56,242 nucleotides of DNA from Defluviitaleaceae bacterium (GTDB taxonomy: Bacteria > Bacillota > Clostridia > Lachnospirales > WRAX01), in NCBI GenBank assembly GCA_009780415.1, contig WRAC01000013.1, forward strand, positions 1 through 56,242, in the 5' to 3' direction. The position numbers and the translations under genes were made by a program. Shown one piece after another: positions 84 to 11,222 of the stretch (its first letter is position 1; every line of letters begins with the position of its first letter). The notes under the pieces are model-generated. The model made no database searches and had not been told where the DNA came from. It was given only the letters and a program-made list of their open reading frames with translations.

Positions 84-623
84 TTAGAAGCTTGGCGGCG
101 ACGAAACCCACAGCAGCACCGCTTCGGTTTTTGCGTTATTTTGTACATAGTGCGGATCGTTTGCCTTATAATAAAAACTCTCGCCTTTTCTTACCTTGTT
201 TTTTGCCTTGCCAAGATGCAGCGTTATACTGCCGCTTAAAACATATCCGAATACCTCGCTCTCGTAAGGCGGGTAGATTTCAGACTTTCCGCCCGGGTCA
301 AGGCGCAGCAGTATCGGTTCCATTTCGTTTTTCTGAGCGTTTGGTATCAGCCAGTCGATGGTATGCCCCAAAATAGCGTTGTTGCGTTCAAAGATATCGT
401 CGCGGGTAAATACCACCCGCTCGTTTTCGTCGCTGTTGAAAAAGTCTTTGAGGTTTGAACCAAGGCAATCCAATATATCCATCAAAGTCGCGATGGACGG
501 GCTGACCTTATCACGCTCAAGCTGGGAGATGAAGCCTTTTGACAAGTCGCACCGCCCGGCAAGCTCTTCCTGTGTCAGGTTCATTTTTATGCGCAGTTGC
601 TTTATCTTGCCGCCCAGTTCCAT
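84..623 (-). CDS. XRE-family regulator with C-terminal cupin domain
   Basis: This is a 179-residue cytoplasmic transcription factor. Residues 5-60 form an XRE helix-turn-helix (IKQLRIKMNLTQEELA, then SKGFISQLERDKVSPS). Residues 105-175 form a small cupin_2 barrel (LRLDPGG, GYVLSGSITLHLG, DPHYVQN), the usual ligand-sensing half of this family. Proteins of this build commonly precede polyamine uptake genes and respond to putrescine or spermidine, which fits the potA-like start 30 bases downstream. A perfect 6-bp inverted repeat lies 30 bases upstream and is the likely autoregulatory site. Family assignment is firm; the ligand is inference. Confidence 0.9.
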   Translation of the reverse strand: MELGGKIKQLRIKMNLTQEELAGRCDLSKGFISQLERDKVSPSIATLMDILDCLGSNLKDFFNSDENERVVFTRDDIFERNNAILGHTIDWLIPNAQKNEMEPILLRLDPGGKSEIYPPYESEVFGYVLSGSITLHLGKAKNKVRKGESFYYKANDPHYVQNNAKTEAVLLWVSSPPSF

Positions 624-825: not shown

Positions 826-3438
826 ATGCTAATATTAAAAGATATCCATAAGCATTATAGGCTGGGCGAAATTGTTATTGAAGCCTTGAAAGGCGTTAGT
901 ATACAATTCAGAAAGAATGAGTTTGTTTCAATACTCGGGCCGTCGGGCTGCGGGAAAACTACGCTGCTGAATATTATCGGCGGGCTTGACCGCTATACGG
1001 AAGGGAATTTGGCTGTAAATCAGCAAGGCACGGAGAAATTTACCGACAGTGATTGGGACACATACCGCAACCGCAGGGTAGGCTTTGTGTTCCAAACCTA
1101 TAACCTTATCCCGCATCAGACGGTTCTCTCGAACGTGGAGCTGGCCCTTACGCTTTCAGGCGTTTCCAAAGCCGAACGCAGGCGCCGCGCGATAGAGGTG
1201 CTGGAGAGGGTAGGGCTTGGCGACCAGCTTTATAAAAAACCCAACCAGATTTCCGGCGGACAGATGCAGCGCGTCGCCATCGCGCGTTCGCTTATAAATG
1301 ACCCGGAGATACTGCTGGCGGACGAACCCACGGGCGCGCTGGATTCGGAAACAAGCGTGCAGATTATAGATATCCTTAAAGAAATTGCGAATGACCGGCT
1401 TGTGATAATGGTTACGCATAATCCCGATATTGCGGAGAAATATTCGACAAGGATTGTGCGGCTGCTGGACGGTAAGGTTATAAGCGATACCGACCCGTAT
1501 ACCGGCGGCAGGGCCGACGGTGAAATAACGGAGGACACCAAAAAGCAAAAAAAGCCCCATATGAGCTTTTCTACCGCTTTTTCGCTTAGCATTAACAACC
1601 TGTTAACGAAAAAGACCCGGACATTCCTGACGTCTTTCGCGGGCAGCATAGGCATTATCGGCATTGCCCTTATTCTGGCGCTGTCCAGCGGTATGCAGGC
1701 TTATATCTCAAGTGTTGAGCAGGATACCCTTTCGAGTTATCCTATTATGATTGAGCAAGTGACTATGAATATGAACGCCATGTTTACGGTTATGGGCGAT
1801 ATGCACGATTTCAGCGGCAGCCGCGAGCGCGAACCGGGCATGGTTTATTCCGACGATATTATGATAAGGGTAATAAACTCCATGCTGCGTGAGCTGCAAT
1901 CAAACGACCTGGAATCGTTCAAGGCTTTTCTTGAAAGCGAGGAAAGCGGGATCGCGCCTTTGGTTAACGATATCAAGTATGGGTACAGCACTCCGCTGAA
2001 TATATTTAAGTCCGATACATCGGACGGTGTTGTTCAGGTGAACCCGAACCAGCTTTTTGACATTATGGGAGTCGGGTACATTATGGATAACCCCGGCGCG
2101 CAGATGGGTATGCCCGGGCAGGCCGGGATGATGGGGCAGGTGGAGGTTTGGAGCGAGCTGCACGGAAACGGCGAACTTCTGGCGGCGCAGTATGACGTTA
2201 TGGCAGGCAGGATGCCGCGGCATTTTGACGAGGTTGTTATCATCACGGACAGGCGCAGCAGGATAAATGATTTTTCCTTGTACGCGCTGGGTTTGATGGA
2301 CCCGGGCAAGCTGACGGATATAATGAGGGTGATAGTTGAAGGAAACGAGGTTGAAAGCGAGCAGGTTTCGTTTACTTATGACGAATTGCTGGCGCTTACG
2401 TTTAAGCTTGTTTTAAATACGGATTTTTTTGAGAATATAAACGGTACTTGGGTCAATATGGGCGAAAACGAGGCGTATATGAAAAACGTAGTTGATAACG
2501 CGCAAGAGGTGAGGGTGGTCGGCGTCCTGCGTCCTGCCGAGAATTCCGCATTGCCCGCGCAGACCAGCGCAGTCGGCTACAGGCCGGATTTAATGACCCA
2601 TTTGATAACGGCCGTAAACAGCAGCCAAATAGTGCGTGACCAAAAAGCTGATTCTGAGATAAATGTCTTTACGGGCAGAGCTTTCGACGACTATACTGAC
2701 CCGCGCGAGGCGTTTGATATGACCTCATTAACGCCGCAGCAGATTATCGGCTTTATGACGATGGGCGAGGATGAGATTATGGCTATGATGCAAGCTTACA
2801 TCCCGCAGCCAAGGGCGACGTACGAGGATAACCTGCTCCTGTTGGGCGTGTCCGACTTGAATAATCCCGGCAGCATAAACATATTTCCGAAAGACTTCGC
2901 TTCAAAAGATTCGATTATTGATATCATCAGCGCGTACAATGCCCGGATGGAAGCCGAGGGAAAGGATGAATCGGTAATCCAATACACGGATTTTGTCGGG
3001 CTTTTGATGTCCAGCGTCAGCAATATCATAAGATCAATCAGCTATATATTGATAGCCTTTGTCGCGATATCGCTTGTTGTATCTTCAATAATGATTGGGA
3101 TAATCACCTACATCTCCGTGTTGGAGCGCACAAAAGAAATCGGAATCCTGCGCAGCATAGGCGCTTCCAAACGCGATATCTCGCTTGTGTTTAACGCGGA
3201 GACTCTGACTGTGGGCTTTGTGGCGGGGATGCTGGGTATCGGCGTTACACTGATGCTATGCATTCCCGCGAATATGATTATTAAGGCCTTGAGCGGTATC
3301 GCGGGGGTTGCGGTTCTGCCGCCTGCCGGCGGCGTGATATTAGTAGTAATCAGCATGACGTTAACCTTGATAGCCGGGCTTATTCCTTCCAAAATCGCGG
3401 CGAATAAGGATCCGGTGGTGGCGCTTAGGACAGAATAA
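826..3438 (+). CDS. MacB-type ABC exporter, ATPase fused to FtsX-like permease
   Basis: The 870-residue protein joins an ATPase to a permease. Residues 1-225 are an ABC ATPase: Walker A GPSGCGKTT at 38-46, signature SGGQMQR near 144 and Walker B LLADEPTGALD near 160. A first membrane segment lies near residues 265-290, then a very large extracellular part of about 430 residues, then three membrane segments near 735-860, the FtsX/MacB arrangement. Family members export peptides, lipoproteins or antimicrobials by a mechanotransmission mechanism. The extracellular part is longer than in typical MacB and has a Met/Gly-rich stretch. The start follows GGAAGG. It has its own promoter and a terminator directly downstream, so it appears monocistronic. 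The substrate is unknown. Confidence 0.9.
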   Translation: MLILKDIHKHYRLGEIVIEALKGVSIQFRKNEFVSILGPSGCGKTTLLNIIGGLDRYTEGNLAVNQQGTEKFTDSDWDTYRNRRVGFVFQTYNLIPHQTVLSNVELALTLSGVSKAERRRRAIEVLERVGLGDQLYKKPNQISGGQMQRVAIARSLINDPEILLADEPTGALDSETSVQIIDILKEIANDRLVIMVTHNPDIAEKYSTRIVRLLDGKVISDTDPYTGGRADGEITEDTKKQKKPHMSFSTAFSLSINNLLTKKTRTFLTSFAGSIGIIGIALILALSSGMQAYISSVEQDTLSSYPIMIEQVTMNMNAMFTVMGDMHDFSGSREREPGMVYSDDIMIRVINSMLRELQSNDLESFKAFLESEESGIAPLVNDIKYGYSTPLNIFKSDTSDGVVQVNPNQLFDIMGVGYIMDNPGAQMGMPGQAGMMGQVEVWSELHGNGELLAAQYDVMAGRMPRHFDEVVIITDRRSRINDFSLYALGLMDPGKLTDIMRVIVEGNEVESEQVSFTYDELLALTFKLVLNTDFFENINGTWVNMGENEAYMKNVVDNAQEVRVVGVLRPAENSALPAQTSAVGYRPDLMTHLITAVNSSQIVRDQKADSEINVFTGRAFDDYTDPREAFDMTSLTPQQIIGFMTMGEDEIMAMMQAYIPQPRATYEDNLLLLGVSDLNNPGSINIFPKDFASKDSIIDIISAYNARMEAEGKDESVIQYTDFVGLLMSSVSNIIRSISYILIAFVAISLVVSSIMIGIITYISVLERTKEIGILRSIGASKRDISLVFNAETLTVGFVAGMLGIGVTLMLCIPANMIIKALSGIAGVAVLPPAGGVILVVISMTLTLIAGLIPSKIAANKDPVVALRTE

Positions 3439-3496: not shown

Positions 3497-4801
3497 CTAC
3501 GATATAACCCGGCAAGCGTTTACATAAGTCCTGTTATAATATGATTCGCTCAAGCTGGAGATTACTACGCCGCGCCTGTTGGAGCTGGACGAGTGGATGA
3601 ACTCGTCGTTACCGATATAGATGCCAACGTGGGATATCCTGCTGCCTCCTGATGTAGCGAAGAATACCAGATCGCCGGGTTTAAGTTCGCTCCGTGCGAT
3701 GATGGTGCCGTTTTTAATCTGGTCCCTTGACGAACGGTTTAACGTGATGCCGACGGATTTATACACCGTATACACGAACCCGGAGCAGTCAAACCCCGTG
3801 TTGGCGCTGGTTCCGCCCCATCTGTAGTTTGCGCCCAGATATTGCTTGGCGTTGCTGATAATCTGCGCGGACAGGCTGTTTTGCGCGGGGACTGCTTCCT
3901 GCGCGTCCTGCGCGGAATTTGATTCACCGTTGAAATATGTAAACCGTGAGCTTACATACCCGGATTCGCCGTGGTATGTAACGTAATGCCAGTCCGAACC
4001 CATTTCGATAACCTCAAGCTTGTTGCCGTTCGGTATGCTTTTGATTATTGAGGAGCTTGCGTTGGGTAAAGTCCGCATATTCAAGCCGTTGGTGCTTCCA
4101 ACAACCGTCAGGTAATCATGCGTCCTCATCGTAAGGGCGTTTGCTTCGTGCTCCACATCCAGATATACGACAAAAGGCGTAGGCCCGTATTCCTGTAAAT
4201 GTTCCAAAAGCCCGCCCAGTATGTCGGTTTTGTAAATATACGCGGACTGTCCGCCTAGATCAATGGCGTAATAATCGCCGTAATAACCGATTACGTTGAG
4301 GATTGAACCCATAGGCACCGATGCCGATACGGCGGAGAAGGGGGTAGGCTCGGTGAGTAAAAACGCGCCGTTTGCGCTGATAAGTCCCTCGGCTTGTATT
4401 ATAGCCACCGAGGATAAGGGTATGTACACTGTTTCGCCTTCATGAGTGAATGTAATCCAGCCGTCCTCTTGCGCTTCAATGTCAATAACTTCGCCTTCTT
4501 CAAGGAAAAAGGCTATTCCCGCGCCGAGCCATGGGTTTGTGTATGCTTCCGCGAATTCATCAGATACAACGGCGATTGACTGCGCCTGCAGCTCCGTAAT
4601 GTAATATGTACAAGCAATCAAGAATCCCAGCAAAACACCGGTCAGCGCCTTACATACCGCGCCACGGACAGATGGCCGCGCGCGCTGCTTCCAACCTGCC
4701 CTGCTCGGAACCTTCGATTCCTGCCCGGGCGGGCAAGCGGCCTCACCAATCGCCGTGCGCGCGACTATTAAGAGTGGCGCGGTATACATACCCCGTATCA
4801 T
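3497..4801 (-). CDS. NlpC/P60 peptidoglycan hydrolase with SH3 repeats
   Basis: This 434-residue secreted or membrane-anchored cell-wall hydrolase cleaves peptide stems of peptidoglycan. The C-terminal NlpC/P60 domain (about 315-434) has the catalytic cysteine in GFDCSGFVYTVYKS and the histidine in SRISHVGIYIG. Upstream are SH3-like wall-binding repeats; a clear one (LNMRTLPNASSSIIKSI) lies near residues 235-295 and weaker ones near 80-200. A hydrophobic segment near residues 50-72 (ALTGVLLGFLIACTYYI) follows an unusually long Arg/Pro/Ala-rich N-terminus. The ATG at 4801 is preceded by GAGGTGAG, which supports that long start. A strong promoter lies upstream and the gene stands alone. Confidence 0.92.
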   Translation of the reverse strand: MIRGMYTAPLLIVARTAIGEAACPPGQESKVPSRAGWKQRARPSVRGAVCKALTGVLLGFLIACTYYITELQAQSIAVVSDEFAEAYTNPWLGAGIAFFLEEGEVIDIEAQEDGWITFTHEGETVYIPLSSVAIIQAEGLISANGAFLLTEPTPFSAVSASVPMGSILNVIGYYGDYYAIDLGGQSAYIYKTDILGGLLEHLQEYGPTPFVVYLDVEHEANALTMRTHDYLTVVGSTNGLNMRTLPNASSSIIKSIPNGNKLEVIEMGSDWHYVTYHGESGYVSSRFTYFNGESNSAQDAQEAVPAQNSLSAQIISNAKQYLGANYRWGGTSANTGFDCSGFVYTVYKSVGITLNRSSRDQIKNGTIIARSELKPGDLVFFATSGGSRISHVGIYIGNDEFIHSSSSNRRGVVISSLSESYYNRTYVNACRVIS

Positions 4802-4910: not shown

Positions 4911-5639
4911 TTACTGATTTTTTACATAAAAACTCCTTGTACCGGCGAATATCATCATAATGCCGGAGAGACCAAATAATATTTTTCCCAGAACAAACGA
5001 TACGGGTACGGAAAAAGCCGGCTCGCCATCGGGGCCCAAAGGCAGCGTAAGCGGATATTCGCTGAAAAAGCGGCTTCCGAACAGGTCAATAAACGCGGGC
5101 AGCGGTAATGAGCCGATTATTAACGTGGCCGCCATTACCGCGTATATTATATTAGGCTGTAAGCCGCCCGCCAATAAACCCACACCCATAATAAACAGCA
5201 TTGCCGGTAGGAGCGTCAGCAAAATTGGTATGAGGAAAGCGCCGAACCCGTAAAACCGGAACACCGTACCGTAGAATACCAGGCTGAGCGCGATTACGGA
5301 CAGAGAGATTATAACGTATCCGGCCGCCATCGCAGCGCATTTGACAAGGGTGTATTTCCCGGGGTCCGTTGGGGTGGCGAACGTCAGCTGTTTTACCTGT
5401 TTTTCGCTTGCAGAGTACATAAACGTAATGAAGAAGAGCATGGCGGTCAGAAGCAGGGGCAGCACACCCGCAAGGTACGCGCCGTAGCTCCAGCTTGAAA
5501 ACGGGGCAGTGTACGCAACCCCAAGGATTATATTTCCGCGCAGCGTCATGAAGCTGTATATCAAGGTTACGGCAAGAAGTATTAAGAAGAATTTATTGAT
5601 TATCAGCCGCTTAAGCTCGTATTTGAATATTTTAATCAA
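4911..5639 (-). CDS. ABC-2 type transporter permease subunit
   Basis: This 242-residue integral membrane protein has about six hydrophobic segments and a short basic N-terminus (KIFKYELKRLIINKFF), the pattern of ABC-2 permeases. The start is a TTG at 5639 that follows GGAG and overlaps the end of the preceding permease-peptidase gene by 8 bases, so translation is probably coupled. It is the last gene of the exporter operon and would pair with the other permease and the ATPase. The substrate cannot be told from the sequence. Confidence 0.8.
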   Translation of the reverse strand: MIKIFKYELKRLIINKFFLILLAVTLIYSFMTLRGNIILGVAYTAPFSSWSYGAYLAGVLPLLLTAMLFFITFMYSASEKQVKQLTFATPTDPGKYTLVKCAAMAAGYVIISLSVIALSLVFYGTVFRFYGFGAFLIPILLTLLPAMLFIMGVGLLAGGLQPNIIYAVMAATLIIGSLPLPAFIDLFGSRFFSEYPLTLPLGPDGEPAFSVPVSFVLGKILFGLSGIMMIFAGTRSFYVKNQ

Positions 5640-7791
5640 GTTTAAGCTCCTCCTCGGTAAGCCCGCAGGCGTCCAGAAATTCTTGATATGTCATTATTTC
5701 GTAAATGTTGGAGTTTGCTAATTCAAATAAAATCGCGTCGAAGATTTCTTCGCCTCCAACCAATTCCTCCGCTTTAAGGATTTTAAGCGGCATAAGGGAA
5801 TACTTCGCGACCTGGGTTTCGCTGACCCTTATATGTGCCGCGAAGGACTCGGGCATGATGCTTAGATATTCGGGGTTGCGGCGGTAGAAGTTACGGTTCA
5901 TGGAATCGACGGCCCGCTGCCATGCCTCGACATAATTCACCCGCGCGTATTCCTCACCGTATTTTTCCTTATACAAACGGTAGGTTGTGTAAACGGTAAG
6001 GCCCTCGGAGCTCCATTCGGGATGGATGCCATCATCCCAAATCATCCTGTTCAGCCCCCACCATTGATGGATGATCTCATGCGCCAATATTTCCATGCCC
6101 GCCGCGCCTTTCCACGGATCTGTCAGCGAATAAATGGAAAACGTAGTTTCGCCCATGTTGCTTACCCCGTGACCGGCGCCGCCGCCCATATTAAACGCGC
6201 TGGTTTGAATCAGCTTTAGCCGGTCATCCAATAAATAATGCAATGGGCCGAAACGCTCGGTGCAGAAATTGAATACGTCGATTAAAACCTGGTCGATGTT
6301 GTTTTCCTCAAGCAATTCCGTGAATTTGGCATGGTGATAGAACTCAACCGTAATATCATTTGCTTCCACTAAACGGTATACATAGTCAGACGCGTAAATG
6401 TTTAAATTATCACTGTGATGCGTGAGCGTCCATGTCTTTGTCCCGTCATTATTATCCAAAACGCCGGCAATTTCGCCCCTTGCGGCAAATAAAACCAAGT
6501 CACCGGGCAGAACTATTGCTGCCGTGACATCGGCGTTGCTTATCCCCATCGTGGGTATAAGGGAACCGGTTCTTAAATCCACATTTTCCCGGCTTATCTC
6601 ATCGCCTCCCATGATTAGCGTGCTAAGGCCCCAAAGCATGGGATAACCGCCGTATTCAATAACCAGCTCCATCTCACCCCCGTGGGGAATGGCGAATTCT
6701 ATATGTTTGGTGGTTAACTGGTCGTTTTTTAAGTCGGTAAACGGTATGGGCACGCCATCCAGCGTCATTGAATATACCGTGTACCCGCTGTTGATGGAAA
6801 ACCTTCTCATCGCATCGCTTGTGTTTTCGGTAATGTTATAGGTTATGCGCCCTTTCATGCGTCCCCTGTTAAAATCGGGCGTCACTTCCGCCGATACCGC
6901 CGACGCGTTTATCCTTTCGCCGAGGTCAAAAAGCATATCCCAATCCACCTCTATCGGGGCATTATTATAAAAGGGCTGGGTTTGGTAATGGTATACGCCA
7001 AGCAGAATCATAACCGTTCCAATTGCAGGAAGGTAGAATTTTTTTATATTCCGAGGGATAGAGCCGAAAACGCCCTTTTCATACTTACGCGTGAACATAA
7101 ACGACACAAGCCATGCCCCGCCCAGCAGCAAAAGCCATAGCTGGCGGTTATAAATACCCATGCGAAAAGGTTGGGCGTTTCCGAAAGCGTCGGAAAAGAC
7201 ATATAAGTTCGGGTTTATCCAGCGCAGGAGGAAATCATCGAATATTGGCCGGTTGAAAGCTAGATATGCACAGGCCAATACAGCTATGAAACTTACGTCC
7301 ACCCTGCGGAAAGCCAAATAAAACACTGCCGCGAAAAGGCTGCCCATCCACATGCCGGGTATCATAAAAATCGAATAAGCTTTTATGTACAGCCCTAAAT
7401 CAAAAAACTCTTCCATACTGTATGCCGTATAGGGCAGATATGCCAGCATTACCGCCAGCCCCGTTGCAAGGGAAACGGCGGTTATGGCGCCCATGCGCGC
7501 GGCATGGAGCGCCATAGGCGGCGCTATCGCGTCCGTCAGCACGGAGGTTTTGTATTTGCGTACCCTGTCAAGTTCAAGGAGCGTGAACAGCGCGAATAAA
7601 ACAGGCACGGCCATCATACCGGTCATAACGGGATTGATTATCATTTGAGTGGAAGCGGTCTGTATCGGGTTCAACACGAAAAACGTAAAACCGAGTAAAG
7701 GGGAAATTGCCGTCAAAGCCGCGAATAACCAAGCGGATTTCGACTTGAATATCCTGATTGTTTCCACCCGCAGGTAGGACAGAAACCCCAT
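5632..7791 (-). CDS. ABC-2 permease fused to M1-like metallopeptidase domain
   Basis: The protein has about 719 residues. Roughly the first 260 form an ABC-2 membrane domain with six or so segments. The rest is extracytoplasmic and contains a zinc peptidase motif HEIIHQWWG, followed 20 residues after the second His by the EGLT glutamate, as in M1 aminopeptidases (which normally have 18). The M1 exopeptidase motif GAMEN is not clear; GAGHGVSNMGE sits in its place. The best start is the ATG at 7791 with GGGAAG upstream; a TTG at 7812 is possible. It overlaps the ATPase end by a few bases. Related permease/M1 fusions are known in Bacillota and Bacteroidota, without a settled substrate. Peptide processing coupled to export or sensing is inference. 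Confidence 0.82.
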   Translation of the reverse strand: MGFLSYLRVETIRIFKSKSAWLFAALTAISPLLGFTFFVLNPIQTASTQMIINPVMTGMMAVPVLFALFTLLELDRVRKYKTSVLTDAIAPPMALHAARMGAITAVSLATGLAVMLAYLPYTAYSMEEFFDLGLYIKAYSIFMIPGMWMGSLFAAVFYLAFRRVDVSFIAVLACAYLAFNRPIFDDFLLRWINPNLYVFSDAFGNAQPFRMGIYNRQLWLLLLGGAWLVSFMFTRKYEKGVFGSIPRNIKKFYLPAIGTVMILLGVYHYQTQPFYNNAPIEVDWDMLFDLGERINASAVSAEVTPDFNRGRMKGRITYNITENTSDAMRRFSINSGYTVYSMTLDGVPIPFTDLKNDQLTTKHIEFAIPHGGEMELVIEYGGYPMLWGLSTLIMGGDEISRENVDLRTGSLIPTMGISNADVTAAIVLPGDLVLFAARGEIAGVLDNNDGTKTWTLTHHSDNLNIYASDYVYRLVEANDITVEFYHHAKFTELLEENNIDQVLIDVFNFCTERFGPLHYLLDDRLKLIQTSAFNMGGGAGHGVSNMGETTFSIYSLTDPWKGAAGMEILAHEIIHQWWGLNRMIWDDGIHPEWSSEGLTVYTTYRLYKEKYGEEYARVNYVEAWQRAVDSMNRNFYRRNPEYLSIMPESFAAHIRVSETQVAKYSLMPLKILKAEELVGGEEIFDAILFELANSNIYEIMTYQEFLDACGLTEEELKLD

Positions 7792-7792
7792 A

Positions 7793-8647
7793 TTACTCAC
7801 TTCCCTTCTCAATCAAGTACATATAGGCGTCCTCCAGCGTCGGCTCCGCCGGTTCCGCGAAATAGGGAAGCTTTTCGGCAATGATGCGGCAGATAACGCC
7901 CCGGGCGGTATTTATGCGCGAGGTTATCTGATACCCGGCGGTGTTGCCGCCGTTTTGCTCGCAAATCCCCACATGGCCGTGGGCGGCTTGGATCAATTCA
8001 TCGGGGCCGCCGTCGAACAGGATGCTGCCGTGGTTCATAACAATCAGCCTGTTGCAGATGGATTGCACGTCCTCGATGATATGTGTGGACAGCAAGACAA
8101 TCTTATCCCGGGCGTTATGAGAAAAAAGGTTGCGGAAGTTGATCCGTTCTTCCGGGTCCAGCCCTACCGTGGGTTCGTCCAGAATAATCAGCCGGGGGTC
8201 GCCTATCAAGGCCTGCGCTATACCGACGCGCTGCTTCATTCCTCCCGACAGGGATCGTATTTTCGTTTTCTTCCTATCGCCGAGATTTGTTTCGTTTATG
8301 GCTTTGGCAATCGCCTCGCGCGGTTTTTTGATGCCTTTAAGCGCCGCCATATAATCCAAAAACTGCCATACAGTCAGTTCGTCGTAAAGCCCGAAGGTTT
8401 GCGGCAGATAACCTAAAACGCTTTTCAAGTATTTTTCATTGTTATTCAGCGGCTTGCCATCCAGCGTTATACCGCCGGCCGTTGGCAGCAGCGCCGCCGC
8501 CAGCAGCTTCATAAGCGTGGTCTTTCCCGCGCCGTTGGGCCCCACAAGCCCTATCATATTGGGACTTGTGAAGTCCATTGTCACATTGTCCAGGGCCTTT
8601 TTTCCGCCCTTATAAGTCTTTCCGACATTCTGCATGGATATTGTCAT
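7793..8647 (-). CDS. ABC transporter ATP-binding protein
   Basis: This is a cytoplasmic ATPase of about 284 residues that powers the two downstream permeases. It shows Walker A GPNGAGKTTL, signature LSGGMKQRVGIAQAL, Walker B LIILDEPTVGLD and the H-loop STHIIED, all of the DRA/CcmA type that pairs with ABC-2 permeases. I choose the ATG at 8647 because GAGGAGGAC lies just upstream. An upstream in-frame ATG at 8698 would put the BlaI-type operator inside the coding region. It is the first gene of the three-gene exporter operon. Confidence 0.92.
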   Translation of the reverse strand: MTISMQNVGKTYKGGKKALDNVTMDFTSPNMIGLVGPNGAGKTTLMKLLAAALLPTAGGITLDGKPLNNNEKYLKSVLGYLPQTFGLYDELTVWQFLDYMAALKGIKKPREAIAKAINETNLGDRKKTKIRSLSGGMKQRVGIAQALIGDPRLIILDEPTVGLDPEERINFRNLFSHNARDKIVLLSTHIIEDVQSICNRLIVMNHGSILFDGGPDELIQAAHGHVGICEQNGGNTAGYQITSRINTARGVICRIIAEKLPYFAEPAEPTLEDAYMYLIEKGSE

Positions 8648-8666
8648 GTCGTCCTCCTCATATTGA

Positions 8667-8694
8667 TCACTACAAACGTAGTGACGATAGCCAA
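8667..8694 (-). promoter_or_regulatory. BlaI-type operator and tentative promoter of exporter operon
   Basis: CACTAC-aaac-GTAGTG at 8668-8683 is a dyad with perfect 6-bp arms that closely resembles BlaI/MecI/CopY operators (TACA-nn-TGTA core, one mismatch). It overlaps a weak candidate -10 (TAGTGA, 8667-8672) whose -35 would be TTGGCT (8689-8694, 16-base spacer). It lies 20 bases before the ATPase start. A repressor bound here would block the exporter operon. The operator is well supported by the second copy at blaI; the promoter boxes are tentative. Confidence 0.65.
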
Positions 8695-8699
8695 ACATA

Positions 8700-8720
8700 G
8701 GGGCGAACTGTGATCACCCG
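8700..8720 (-). repeat. Imperfect REP-like palindrome
   Basis: GGGCGAA-ctgtg-ATCACCC is an imperfect palindrome and a near match to the element at 40316-40334. On the minus-strand RNA it still folds (one G-U wobble, one terminal mismatch). It lies between blaR1 and the exporter operon and may weaken read-through from blaIR, but it has no T-tract. Confidence 0.45.
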
Positions 8721-8741
8721 GTTTAAGCTGATTTTAAAACA

Positions 8742-10106
8742 TCAATATCTAAACGGCGTGAGTGCGCGGCTGAAGCTCCAGTAACCGTCTAAGCCGTTCA
8801 TTAGTTGCAGCGCGCTGTTCGCGGTAAACATATCCGTTTTCGATTCAAACGACGGCATATCGATTATCATATACCGGTCCGATGTTATTTCGCCGTCAAT
8901 AATTAAATCAGCGCAGTCATAGATAAAACTATGTATTACACCACGGAAGCTTGTGCCAAAAGCGTGTTTGGAGAAGGAAAGGTCATCAGGCGGCGCATCG
9001 GTAAAACCGATTAATTCAAAGGCGTGCCGCTCGTTTGAAACGGTTTCGCCAATCCAGACCACGGCGTATGCGCTTTCAGCATTATCGGTGACCGCTATCG
9101 CGTACGCCGTCAAAATATCTGAATGCGGTGATAATACGGACGCGGATATGCTGGAAACGGACGAAATGCTCACCATGCCAATAGGCAGCATAAGCACGGC
9201 CAAAACAACCGCCGTTATCCGCGAACTAATTGTCGGCTTACGCAAACGCATTATATTGACAATCCTGTTTTTTATATCCGGCGAGGCCAGCGGCATGGAA
9301 AACACCGGGCGGACGGGCAGCACCGGGGCAAGCTCCACAAGCGCGCGGGCATATTCGGCCTTGCTTTCATATCCAATGCTCTTCACAACCGCCGCGTCGC
9401 AGCGGAACTCCATATCCATCTTTATTAATATCCGGCACAGCCAAACCAGCGGATTAAACCAATGGATACATACAAGCCCAAGCCACAGCACGTTAAAAAG
9501 GCTGTCAAAATGGCGTATATGCCGGATTTCGTGGATTATGGCGTGTTTGGACTGTATGTTGCCTTTTGCGGGAAAATCCAAGGGCAGTATTATTCTGGGC
9601 TTCAACACCCCGAATGTTATCGGCGTTTTTACATGCTCAGACGTATGTATTGTGACGCGCCGTTTAACGCCGCTCAGATATGCGTTATATTCGGCGCTGT
9701 AAAAGGTCTTCGCGCCGGAAAAATATCTGCCCAGGCGTATGCGCTGGATCAGGAAGAAGCAAGCCAGCAAAACCATTCCCGCGGCCCAAATTATTTCCGG
9801 CAAATAGCCCGCTGTTTTGTATGCGGCGTTTGCTTCGCCCGTAATATACGGTATAGTATCAAAAACAAAAGTATGCTGGATGATTGTAGTCGTGATATTA
9901 TACATCGCCGGTGAAACGACGAACTGAACGGGCGCGTAATTAGGGATAAATAACGGCCATATAAACGCGGCAAACACGCAGACCCATAAAACGGCCGTCA
10001 GCGAATGGGGCAGCTTCCGCCGCGCGAAAGGGCGGATAACCATAACAAACAACGCCATTACGCTTGCCGAAACAGTCGCCTGAAGCACATACGTGAATGT
10101 CGTCAT
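8742..10106 (-). CDS. blaR1: BlaR1/MecR1-like M56 membrane metallopeptidase sensor
   Basis: This 454-residue membrane sensor-protease has several transmembrane segments in the first half and the M56 zinc motif HEIRH, followed by EFRCDAAV with a downstream acidic ligand. Members of the family cleave the BlaI repressor when their extracellular part detects a signal. Here the tail after the last membrane segment (about residues 315-454) is only about 140 residues and shows none of the SxxK/SxN/KTG motifs of the penicillin-binding sensor. The signal may therefore not be a beta-lactam, or partner proteins may supply it. The start overlaps the blaI stop (ATGA), so the pair is translationally coupled. 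Confidence 0.9.
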   Translation of the reverse strand: MTTFTYVLQATVSASVMALFVMVIRPFARRKLPHSLTAVLWVCVFAAFIWPLFIPNYAPVQFVVSPAMYNITTTIIQHTFVFDTIPYITGEANAAYKTAGYLPEIIWAAGMVLLACFFLIQRIRLGRYFSGAKTFYSAEYNAYLSGVKRRVTIHTSEHVKTPITFGVLKPRIILPLDFPAKGNIQSKHAIIHEIRHIRHFDSLFNVLWLGLVCIHWFNPLVWLCRILIKMDMEFRCDAAVVKSIGYESKAEYARALVELAPVLPVRPVFSMPLASPDIKNRIVNIMRLRKPTISSRITAVVLAVLMLPIGMVSISSVSSISASVLSPHSDILTAYAIAVTDNAESAYAVVWIGETVSNERHAFELIGFTDAPPDDLSFSKHAFGTSFRGVIHSFIYDCADLIIDGEITSDRYMIIDMPSFESKTDMFTANSALQLMNGLDGYWSFSRALTPFRY

Positions 10107-10489
10107 AACGATACATCCCCGCTGTCGATCAGTTTCAGCAGAATATTTTTCTCCGCTTGGGAAATCGGCTTTTTATCCAGAAATGCCTGTACGAACATAC
10201 CGATTGAACCGTCGTACAAACGCTCCACCATGTCGGCGGCTTCGTCGCGGAGTATCTCATCCTTTCCATGCACGGCGGAGCAAATAAAACCGGGATCCCT
10301 GCGCTTGACGGCGCCTTTCTTGATAAGGCGGTGGAGGAAGGTGTATGTAGTGTTCTTCTCCCAGCCAATCTCGTCGCGGGCGGCATCCGCTATTAATGTG
10401 GCTCTGGCTTCGCCTATCCTCCACAATATATCCATCACCATTATTTCGGAATCGCTTAACTTAGTATTAACAAGGATACCCCCTCTCAC
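10103..10489 (-). CDS. blaI: BlaI/MecI/CopY-family repressor
   Basis: This small winged-helix repressor (about 125 residues) shows the family opening KLSDSEIMVMDILW, recognition-helix region TLIADAARDEIGWEKNTTYTFLHRL and a C-terminal dimerisation part. It should bind the two TACA-nn-TGTA dyads at 10487 and 8668 and be cut by the adjacent BlaR1-like protease. The start is unusual: an ATG at 10531 would overlap the gene's own promoter. GTG at 10489 is the first in-frame start after the predicted transcript start, nearly leaderless. A good AGAGGGGG motif further in is followed only by an out-of-frame TTG. I give the GTG as the best guess. Confidence 0.85.
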   Translation of the reverse strand: MRGGILVNTKLSDSEIMVMDILWRIGEARATLIADAARDEIGWEKNTTYTFLHRLIKKGAVKRRDPGFICSAVHGKDEILRDEAADMVERLYDGSIGMFVQAFLDKKPISQAEKNILLKLIDSGDVSL

Positions 10490-10502
10490 TACATTTGTAA
10501 TG
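10487..10502. promoter_or_regulatory. BlaI-type operator at blaI
   Basis: CACTACATTTGTAATG is a dyad with the TACA-tt-TGTA core of BlaI operators and outer CA/TG pairs. It overlaps the last bases of the -10 box of the blaI promoter, the classic arrangement for autorepression. Confidence 0.75.
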
Positions 10503-10528
10503 ATATCATGGGGTATATGTATTGTCAA
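10500..10528 (-). promoter_or_regulatory. Promoter of blaI-blaR1
   Basis: On the minus strand, TTGACA (10523-10528) and TATCAT (10500-10505) have a 17-base spacer. The -35 box lies inside the last codons of the upstream membrane-protein gene, and the -10 touches the BlaI operator. Confidence 0.75.
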
Positions 10529-11222
10529 CATATTTTTTACGCAGAAGGCATAGCTTATCTTCGCACCGGCGGCATTGCAGGTTTTCGTTGGTTTCTTGCG
10601 TAAAGTAATTGGGTTTTGTATAAAACGCTACTTCCCAGCGTATCAAAACGGTTAGCGAGAGCAGAATCAGGCTTATCGAATAAACGCTGGGATACAGTAT
10701 CATGGGTATACACATCATAAAATAATCCCAATTATAAATGCGGCATACAACGCAGCAGCGGTTCCGCATGAATAAAACTTGAAAAGGGCAGAAGATAAGT
10801 ATAAAAACAAGGTCGAATACAGCGTAAGCAAGTACGATAAGCAAAACCGCCGCGGGAGTCAGCAAACCCAATTGATGAAGCAGGAAAAGCACGGTTGCGG
10901 TGATTAAAAACCAGGAAGAAATGCTTAAAAGCGCGCCTTTTTGCGTTTTCTTGCTTTTTGGAGTAATAGCGGATAAGGGAGCGGGGCTGTAAGAGCAGGT
11001 GAAGTGCTTGCGCGCTCCCATGGAGATACGTTTATTTGGGATAATTCGATACAGCATATCAACGGTAAGTGAAATCCAAATAATAAAGAGAAATAACGCG
11101 TTAAGCCCTATATCCGGAATTACGGTAAAATTTAATTTATCAACATCGGCAAAAAACAGGTAAAATGCCATGGCAAACAGAAATACCCGGAATATAAGCT
11201 TACATACATGGCGAAGGAACAT
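10506..11222 (-). CDS. Conserved membrane protein with CxxC motifs, function unknown
   Basis: This 238-residue protein has about five or six hydrophobic segments. Near the middle is a cysteine motif RCCVVCRIYNWDY, and near the C-terminus CRRCEDKLC. Together they could form a metal or Fe-S site on one face of the membrane. I recognise this motif layout from uncharacterised membrane proteins in Clostridia but know no function. The C-terminal codons contain the blaI -35 box. It follows the EamA gene by 36 bases in the same direction and may be cotranscribed with it. Confidence 0.75.
   Translation of the reverse strand: MFLRHVCKLIFRVFLFAMAFYLFFADVDKLNFTVIPDIGLNALFLFIIWISLTVDMLYRIIPNKRISMGARKHFTCSYSPAPLSAITPKSKKTQKGALLSISSWFLITATVLFLLHQLGLLTPAAVLLIVLAYAVFDLVFILIFCPFQVLFMRNRCCVVCRIYNWDYFMMCIPMILYPSVYSISLILLSLTVLIRWEVAFYTKPNYFTQETNENLQCRRCEDKLCLLRKKYVDNTYTP

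Follow-up and report, generated by a model that had tools for sequence, protein, structure and literature searches.

What would a BlaI/BlaR1-type pair control, and what would it respond to, when it stands beside a transporter? Such repressor-protease pairs are known above all as the switch that turns on penicillin resistance, with BlaR1 cleaving BlaI upon a signal, and to our knowledge nearly everything learned about BlaI-M56 pairs stems from beta-lactam resistance. In the stretch of Defluviitaleaceae DNA analysed here (contig WRAC01000013.1, positions 1 to 56,242; "the window"), a BlaI-type repressor and an M56 protease precede the genes of an ABC exporter that carries its own peptidase. We interpret the locus as a switch that acts locally and would turn on the exporter under envelope stress: quite probably the five genes form a self-contained autoregulated operon, in which BlaI would act through two operators (O1 and O2), the M56 protease would relieve repression, and the exporter would be induced.

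Organization of the operon

The operon comprises five co-directional minus-strand genes (blaI, M56 protease, ABC ATPase, permease-M1-type peptidase fusion, and second permease), with the following features:

10500-10528, minus strand: blaI promoter; -35 TTGACA (10528-10523), 17-base spacer, -10 TATCAT (10505-10500)
10487-10502: candidate operator O1, CATTACAAATGTAGTG, overlapping the end of the blaI -10 box; position conserved in L129 and L130
10103-10474, minus strand: BlaI-type repressor (blaI), 123 aa; TTG start behind AGAGGGGG
8742-10106, minus strand: M56 (BlaR1-type) membrane protease, 454 aa; Peptidase_M56, 154.5 bits (Pfam)
8667-8684: candidate operator O2, TCACTACAAACGTAGTGA, a perfect dyad of 18 bases
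7793-8647, minus strand: ABC transporter ATPase, 284 aa; ABC_tran, 118.5 bits
5632-7788, minus strand: 718-aa fusion of a permease and an M1-type metallopeptidase, with HEIIH at residues 570-574 (6081-6067)
4911-5639, minus strand: second permease subunit, 242 aa; also 3' of the fused permease in the relatives that were read

The repressor holds a Penicillinase_R winged-helix domain (73.8 bits against a Pfam cut-off of 22.6) and can be aligned to MecI (1okr/1sd6). Its gene shares an ATGA with that of the M56 protease, as the preliminary description of this DNA had reported (10106-10103), and 94 bases separate the M56 gene from the ATPase gene. The second permease has no match in Pfam. An Rfam scan returned no match, and PADLOC returned generic ATPase matches only. 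The description had also placed the exporter where a beta-lactamase would be expected, which is true of this operon: the partners of the pair are ABC and M1-type proteins, neither a beta-lactamase nor PBP2a is encoded in it, and the beta-lactamase-family genes of the genome lie on other contigs. A beta-lactamase-family protein of 159.7 bits is encoded at C37:4298-4975 (L207), on a contig that carries none of the four BlaI genes.

Promoter and candidate operators

The blaI promoter matches the consensus at 11 of 12 bases, has a TG ahead of its -10 box, and is the top promoter-like site of the region; its layout is common to L129 and L130. Both dyads that had been pointed out are present: the first (10487-10502) includes the final three bases of the -10 box, and the 16-base core of the second (8668-8683) lies 20 bases 5' of the ATPase, whose ATG is at 8647. 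O1 and O2 agree in 14 of 16 bases, with CAYTAC-N4-GTARTG as their common motif; assuming equal base frequencies, the chance of a 14/16 match to O1 inside the 94-base gap is about 4 in 100,000. The motif proposed earlier, TACA-nn-TGTA, fits O1 only, since O2 reads TACA-AA-CGTA, and the genome-wide scan that had been suggested for it showed that it is not rare: TACANNTGTA occurs at 19 genome sites versus 34 for the reversed control, and was dropped as uninformative. In our pattern searches of the 2.53-Mb genome, exact CAYTACNNNNGTARTG gave two matches, O1 and O2, both in this operon; with one mismatch permitted, the genome count was about that of the control. A third candidate site, at C2:79236 (CACTACAAGCGTAGCG), falls within a reading frame of 723 residues and was dismissed as a chance match.

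The five-gene order is repeated in two genomes of the same order, G203 (L129) and G150 (L130), and in both TCACTACACGYGTAGTGA (TCACTAC-N4-GTAGTGA) sits on the blaI -10 box. Exact TCACTACNNNNGTAGTGA is found in four of the order's 392 genomes, namely this one, G203, G150, and G165; the first three carry the operon and G165 does not. The reversed control matched a handful of genomes, so that the background is around chance level. The recognition helix of BlaI is nearly identical in the three operon carriers, and none of the regions fetched for exporters with another kind of control contains CTAC-N4-GTAG. The BlaI branch of this operon has a fourth member, L030, whose blaI promoter has two CTACAARCGTAG sites around it; one of these has a 13-base stretch, ACTACAAACGTAG, in common with O2. 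The upstream dyads of three further BlaI proteins in the window's own genome are different or not clear. The operator type thus belongs to the BlaI branch of this operon. The three homologues (L112, L113, and L114, on contigs C1, C50, and C51) are varied in themselves: C1 BlaI has tandem TACA-nn-TGTA dyads, C50 BlaI has an TAGTCTATAATTAGACTA dyad resembling the C. thermocellum type, and C51 BlaI has no clear short dyad. Apparently, BlaI homologues within one genome use separate operator codes.

Control of the exporter

Comparison gives good support to the proposal that BlaI controls the exporter, because the five-gene order recurs in two other genomes, the promoter operator is conserved, and the operator is nearly missing from the rest of the order's genomes. 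The earlier claim that the BlaI-M56 pair induces the exporter thus stands as far as BlaI control is concerned, on gene order and the kept operator. A role for O2, as an independent promoter-operator for instance, is unsupported by comparison, because our promoter scan of the region found no good promoter beside it and a counterpart before the ATPase is absent in G203 and G150.

These same two results favour the explanation that BlaI acts on the exporter through nothing but read-through from its own promoter, with O2 as an RNA hairpin or a relic and not an operator, as does the folding of O2 into an 8-pair stem just 5' of the ribosome-binding site. Against it, O2 is only two bases in 16 away from O1, it has 13 contiguous bases in common with a promoter operator of L030, and the fold energy of the leader is ordinary (z -0.8). 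We consider read-through alone unlikely, though the best placed of the alternatives.

In the mechanism that we propose, dimeric BlaI would bind O1 at its own promoter and O2 ahead of the exporter genes, where O2 may be a roadblock or a weak internal promoter-operator, and this binding would keep the expression of blaI-M56 and the exporter low. Once activated, the M56 protease would inactivate BlaI by cleavage, like BlaR1, and the operon would be induced. The induced product would be a two-permease ABC exporter with its M1-type peptidase facing outside. Together they are expected to clear away or break down a peptide or another envelope-active compound, most likely the one behind the inducing signal.

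The exporter and its peptidase

The fusion of a permease to an HExxH peptidase was rightly recognized before, the motif reading HEIIH. The Peptidase_M1 score of the fused permease (20.5 bits) is under the Pfam cut-off of 27.7, and the nearest solved relatives of the peptidase part are leukotriene A4 hydrolase-type proteins, the best of them at E 6e-7. HExxH is retained in 14 of 15 aligned sequences; H570, E571, and H574, together with the downstream E595, are conserved in all homologues but one. In place of the canonical GAMEN exopeptidase motif, which is absent, most homologues have GGxAxxxxxxxxE. From the charge pattern we infer that the peptidase domain faces outside. In one relative (L125, from G147) the M1-type domain has no HExxH and reads STEIIQ; the G147 exporter may work without peptidase activity.

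Exchange of regulators beside the exporter

Of 79 loci sampled by way of M56, 42 were scanned for the gene that follows it, and this gene is an ABC ATPase in one of them, so the linkage of M56 to an exporter is rare overall. The comparison was for this reason made from the exporter side, with the fused permease as the query in a search of the order. Sixteen exporters have readable neighbourhoods: eight lie beside a two-component system, two in a Bce-like module, three beside BlaI-M56, one beside BlaI alone, and two beside no regulator. The exporter is thus regularly accompanied by a local sensor. Apart from the three operons described above, they are distributed as follows:

Response regulator and histidine kinase: G003 (the window's own family), G147, G215, G059, G351, G537, G498, G1076
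Bce-like set (ATPase, FtsX permease, response regulator, and kinase without extracellular domain): G553 (L168), G729 (L169)
BlaI alone: G679
Nothing obvious: G424, G1090

Pfam confirmed the domains of kinase and regulator in a sample of these genomes, and in the remainder they were read from the sequence; in G238, G653, and G473 the neighbourhood is incomplete or interrupted by the end of a contig. L098 (Candidatus Pararuminococcus gallinarum), in which BlaI-M56 is followed by an unrelated ABC exporter, was left out of the count.

The BlaI-M56 pairs of the three operons group together (SH-aLRT 96), a grouping to be taken with caution as the tree has long branches and the tree tool issued a warning. 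Their exporters form no clade (AU p 2.4e-4 under LG+G4), and such a clade is also rejected under a mixture model with the longest branch left out (AU p 3.4e-7). Since the pairs group while their exporters do not, the pair probably became attached to this exporter repeatedly, or else exporters were exchanged under the pair; either would be the simplest reading. Sensor and pump seem to behave as exchangeable modules, and the exporter exemplifies the exchange of regulators during evolution.

A sensing role for BlaI-M56 is plausible, because sensor kinases replace the pair beside the same exporter elsewhere. The presence of the ABC-M1 exporter inside the Bce-like modules L168 and L169 is a hint that it takes part in defence against peptide antibiotics, and from this occurrence and the precedent of BlaR1 we infer that the inducer is an envelope or peptide signal. 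In a much less likely reading, the M56 protease would have no sensor of its own and would follow the state of the exporter or of its extracellular peptidase, the proteolysis of BlaI being set off by the working pump or by the cutting of peptides; most kinases beside the exporter elsewhere have an extracellular domain of their own, of roughly 95-145 residues, which argues mildly against the exporter as a general sensor. Were it true, exporter-state sensing would be the repressor-protease counterpart of Bce flux sensing.

The M56 protease

Eight residues of the M56 protein (H192, E193, H196, D201, E233, D237, Y252, and R281) are invariant in 30 sequences. The catalytic set of BlaR1 consists of H201, H205, D210, E242, D246, Y261, and R294 (PMC9834060), and from the alignment offset and this invariance its equivalents are H192, H196, D201, E233, D237, Y252, and R281. 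The protein has the membrane gluzincin core, HExxH plus ExxxD, by which BlaR1/MecR1 proteins are defined; the predicted core is confident, and BlaR1 entries were the sole confident matches in a fold search. On these grounds the core is BlaR1-like, with a complete predicted active site. In an alignment read by eye, the P1' Phe of the BlaR1 autocleavage loop is apparently Leu here. The repressor, aligned to MecI, keeps the Phe at its cleavage position (N101-F102 in BlaI), with Ala before it.

The tail is different. The preliminary count of about 140 residues past the last membrane segment is borne out (139 residues), but SxxK, said to be missing, does occur as SFSK at tail residues 377-380; it stands alone and is not conserved in G150. 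No penicillin-binding sensor domain was found in Pfam or NCBIfam scans, the tail has no significant match among 96 other M56 tails, and its structure prediction (pLDDT below 50) gives no confident fold, so that no recognisable sensor was found in these 139 residues. In G203 the M56 protein has a tail of only about 50 residues.

Could this nevertheless be a circuit for beta-lactams or peptidoglycan damage, with M56 responding directly or via a muropeptide and the exporter as an auxiliary resistance device? The proteins do belong to the BlaR1 and BlaI families, a peptidoglycan dipeptide acts as co-inducer for BlaI in B. licheniformis (PMC3305447), and the M. tuberculosis homologue, mentioned as having no equivalent sensor domain, is yet treated as a beta-lactam responder (PMC9834060). 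We regard it as improbable all the same: M56 has no penicillin-binding domain here, and the best beta-lactamase-family gene is on another contig (C37) and has no exact CAYTACNNNNGTARTG site. That the pair regulates only itself beside an independent exporter is very improbable: BlaI-M56 pairs are abundant among Clostridia, where most of them adjoin other genes, but the five-gene order is kept in three genomes with non-sister exporters, O2 lies directly 5' of the exporter, and no other promoter was found when looked for before it.

Relation to known systems

The proposed operon-wide switch shares with BlaI/BlaR1 and MecI/MecR1 of Staphylococcus and Bacillus licheniformis the adjacent genes for a repressor and an M56 gluzincin protease, the dyads over the blaI promoter, the complete catalytic residues, and an extracellular loop of similar length between membrane segments 2 and 3. 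It differs in having no penicillin-binding sensor domain, beta-lactamase, or PBP2a, in its target (an ABC exporter), and in being a same-strand operon where those systems are divergons. BlaI regulons without a beta-lactamase were already reported in C. thermocellum (PMC8457756); these are likewise small and autoregulated, include BlaR1-type genes, and have no reported beta-lactamase target, whereas their half-sites are GTCTAT/GACTAT, their targets are others, and an exporter-peptidase is not reported among them. As in M. tuberculosis BlaI/BlaR, the M56 protease is without an equivalent sensor domain (PMC9834060), the targets being different.

With the BceRS-BceAB peptide-antibiotic modules the locus shares the (here predicted) combination of a sensor and an ABC exporter for envelope defence, and the ABC-M1 exporter itself is found in such modules in L168 and L169. 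Here, however, a repressor and a protease take the place of the kinase and response regulator, and Pfam finds neither an FtsX-type BceB permease nor a BceS-like kinase in this operon. The peptidase has HExxH and the downstream glutamate in common with M1 metallopeptidases (leukotriene A4 hydrolase relatives); unlike them it is fused to an ABC permease, probably faces outside, lacks the canonical GAMEN, and scores below the Pfam cut-off. Our searches of the open-access literature turned up no description of BlaI controlling an M1-fused ABC exporter, or of the exchange of its regulators. The case offers a defined operator, a small regulon, and natural controls, i.e. the same exporter under kinases, in a Bce-like module, or under BlaI-M56, and makes it testable what sensorless M56 proteins detect.

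Neighbouring genes

The gene for a 238-residue membrane protein with no match in Pfam (10506-11222, minus strand) covers the -35 box of blaI with its 3' end and may share a transcript with the operon. On the other side, an SH3-NlpC/P60 cell-wall hydrolase (3497-4801, minus strand) lies 3' of the exporter on the same strand, in a position that is not kept in L129 and L130. Farther on, as judged from the translations only, are an 870-residue ATPase-permease fusion, MacB-like in appearance (826-3438, plus strand), and, divergent from it, an apparent XRE-cupin regulator (84-623, minus strand).
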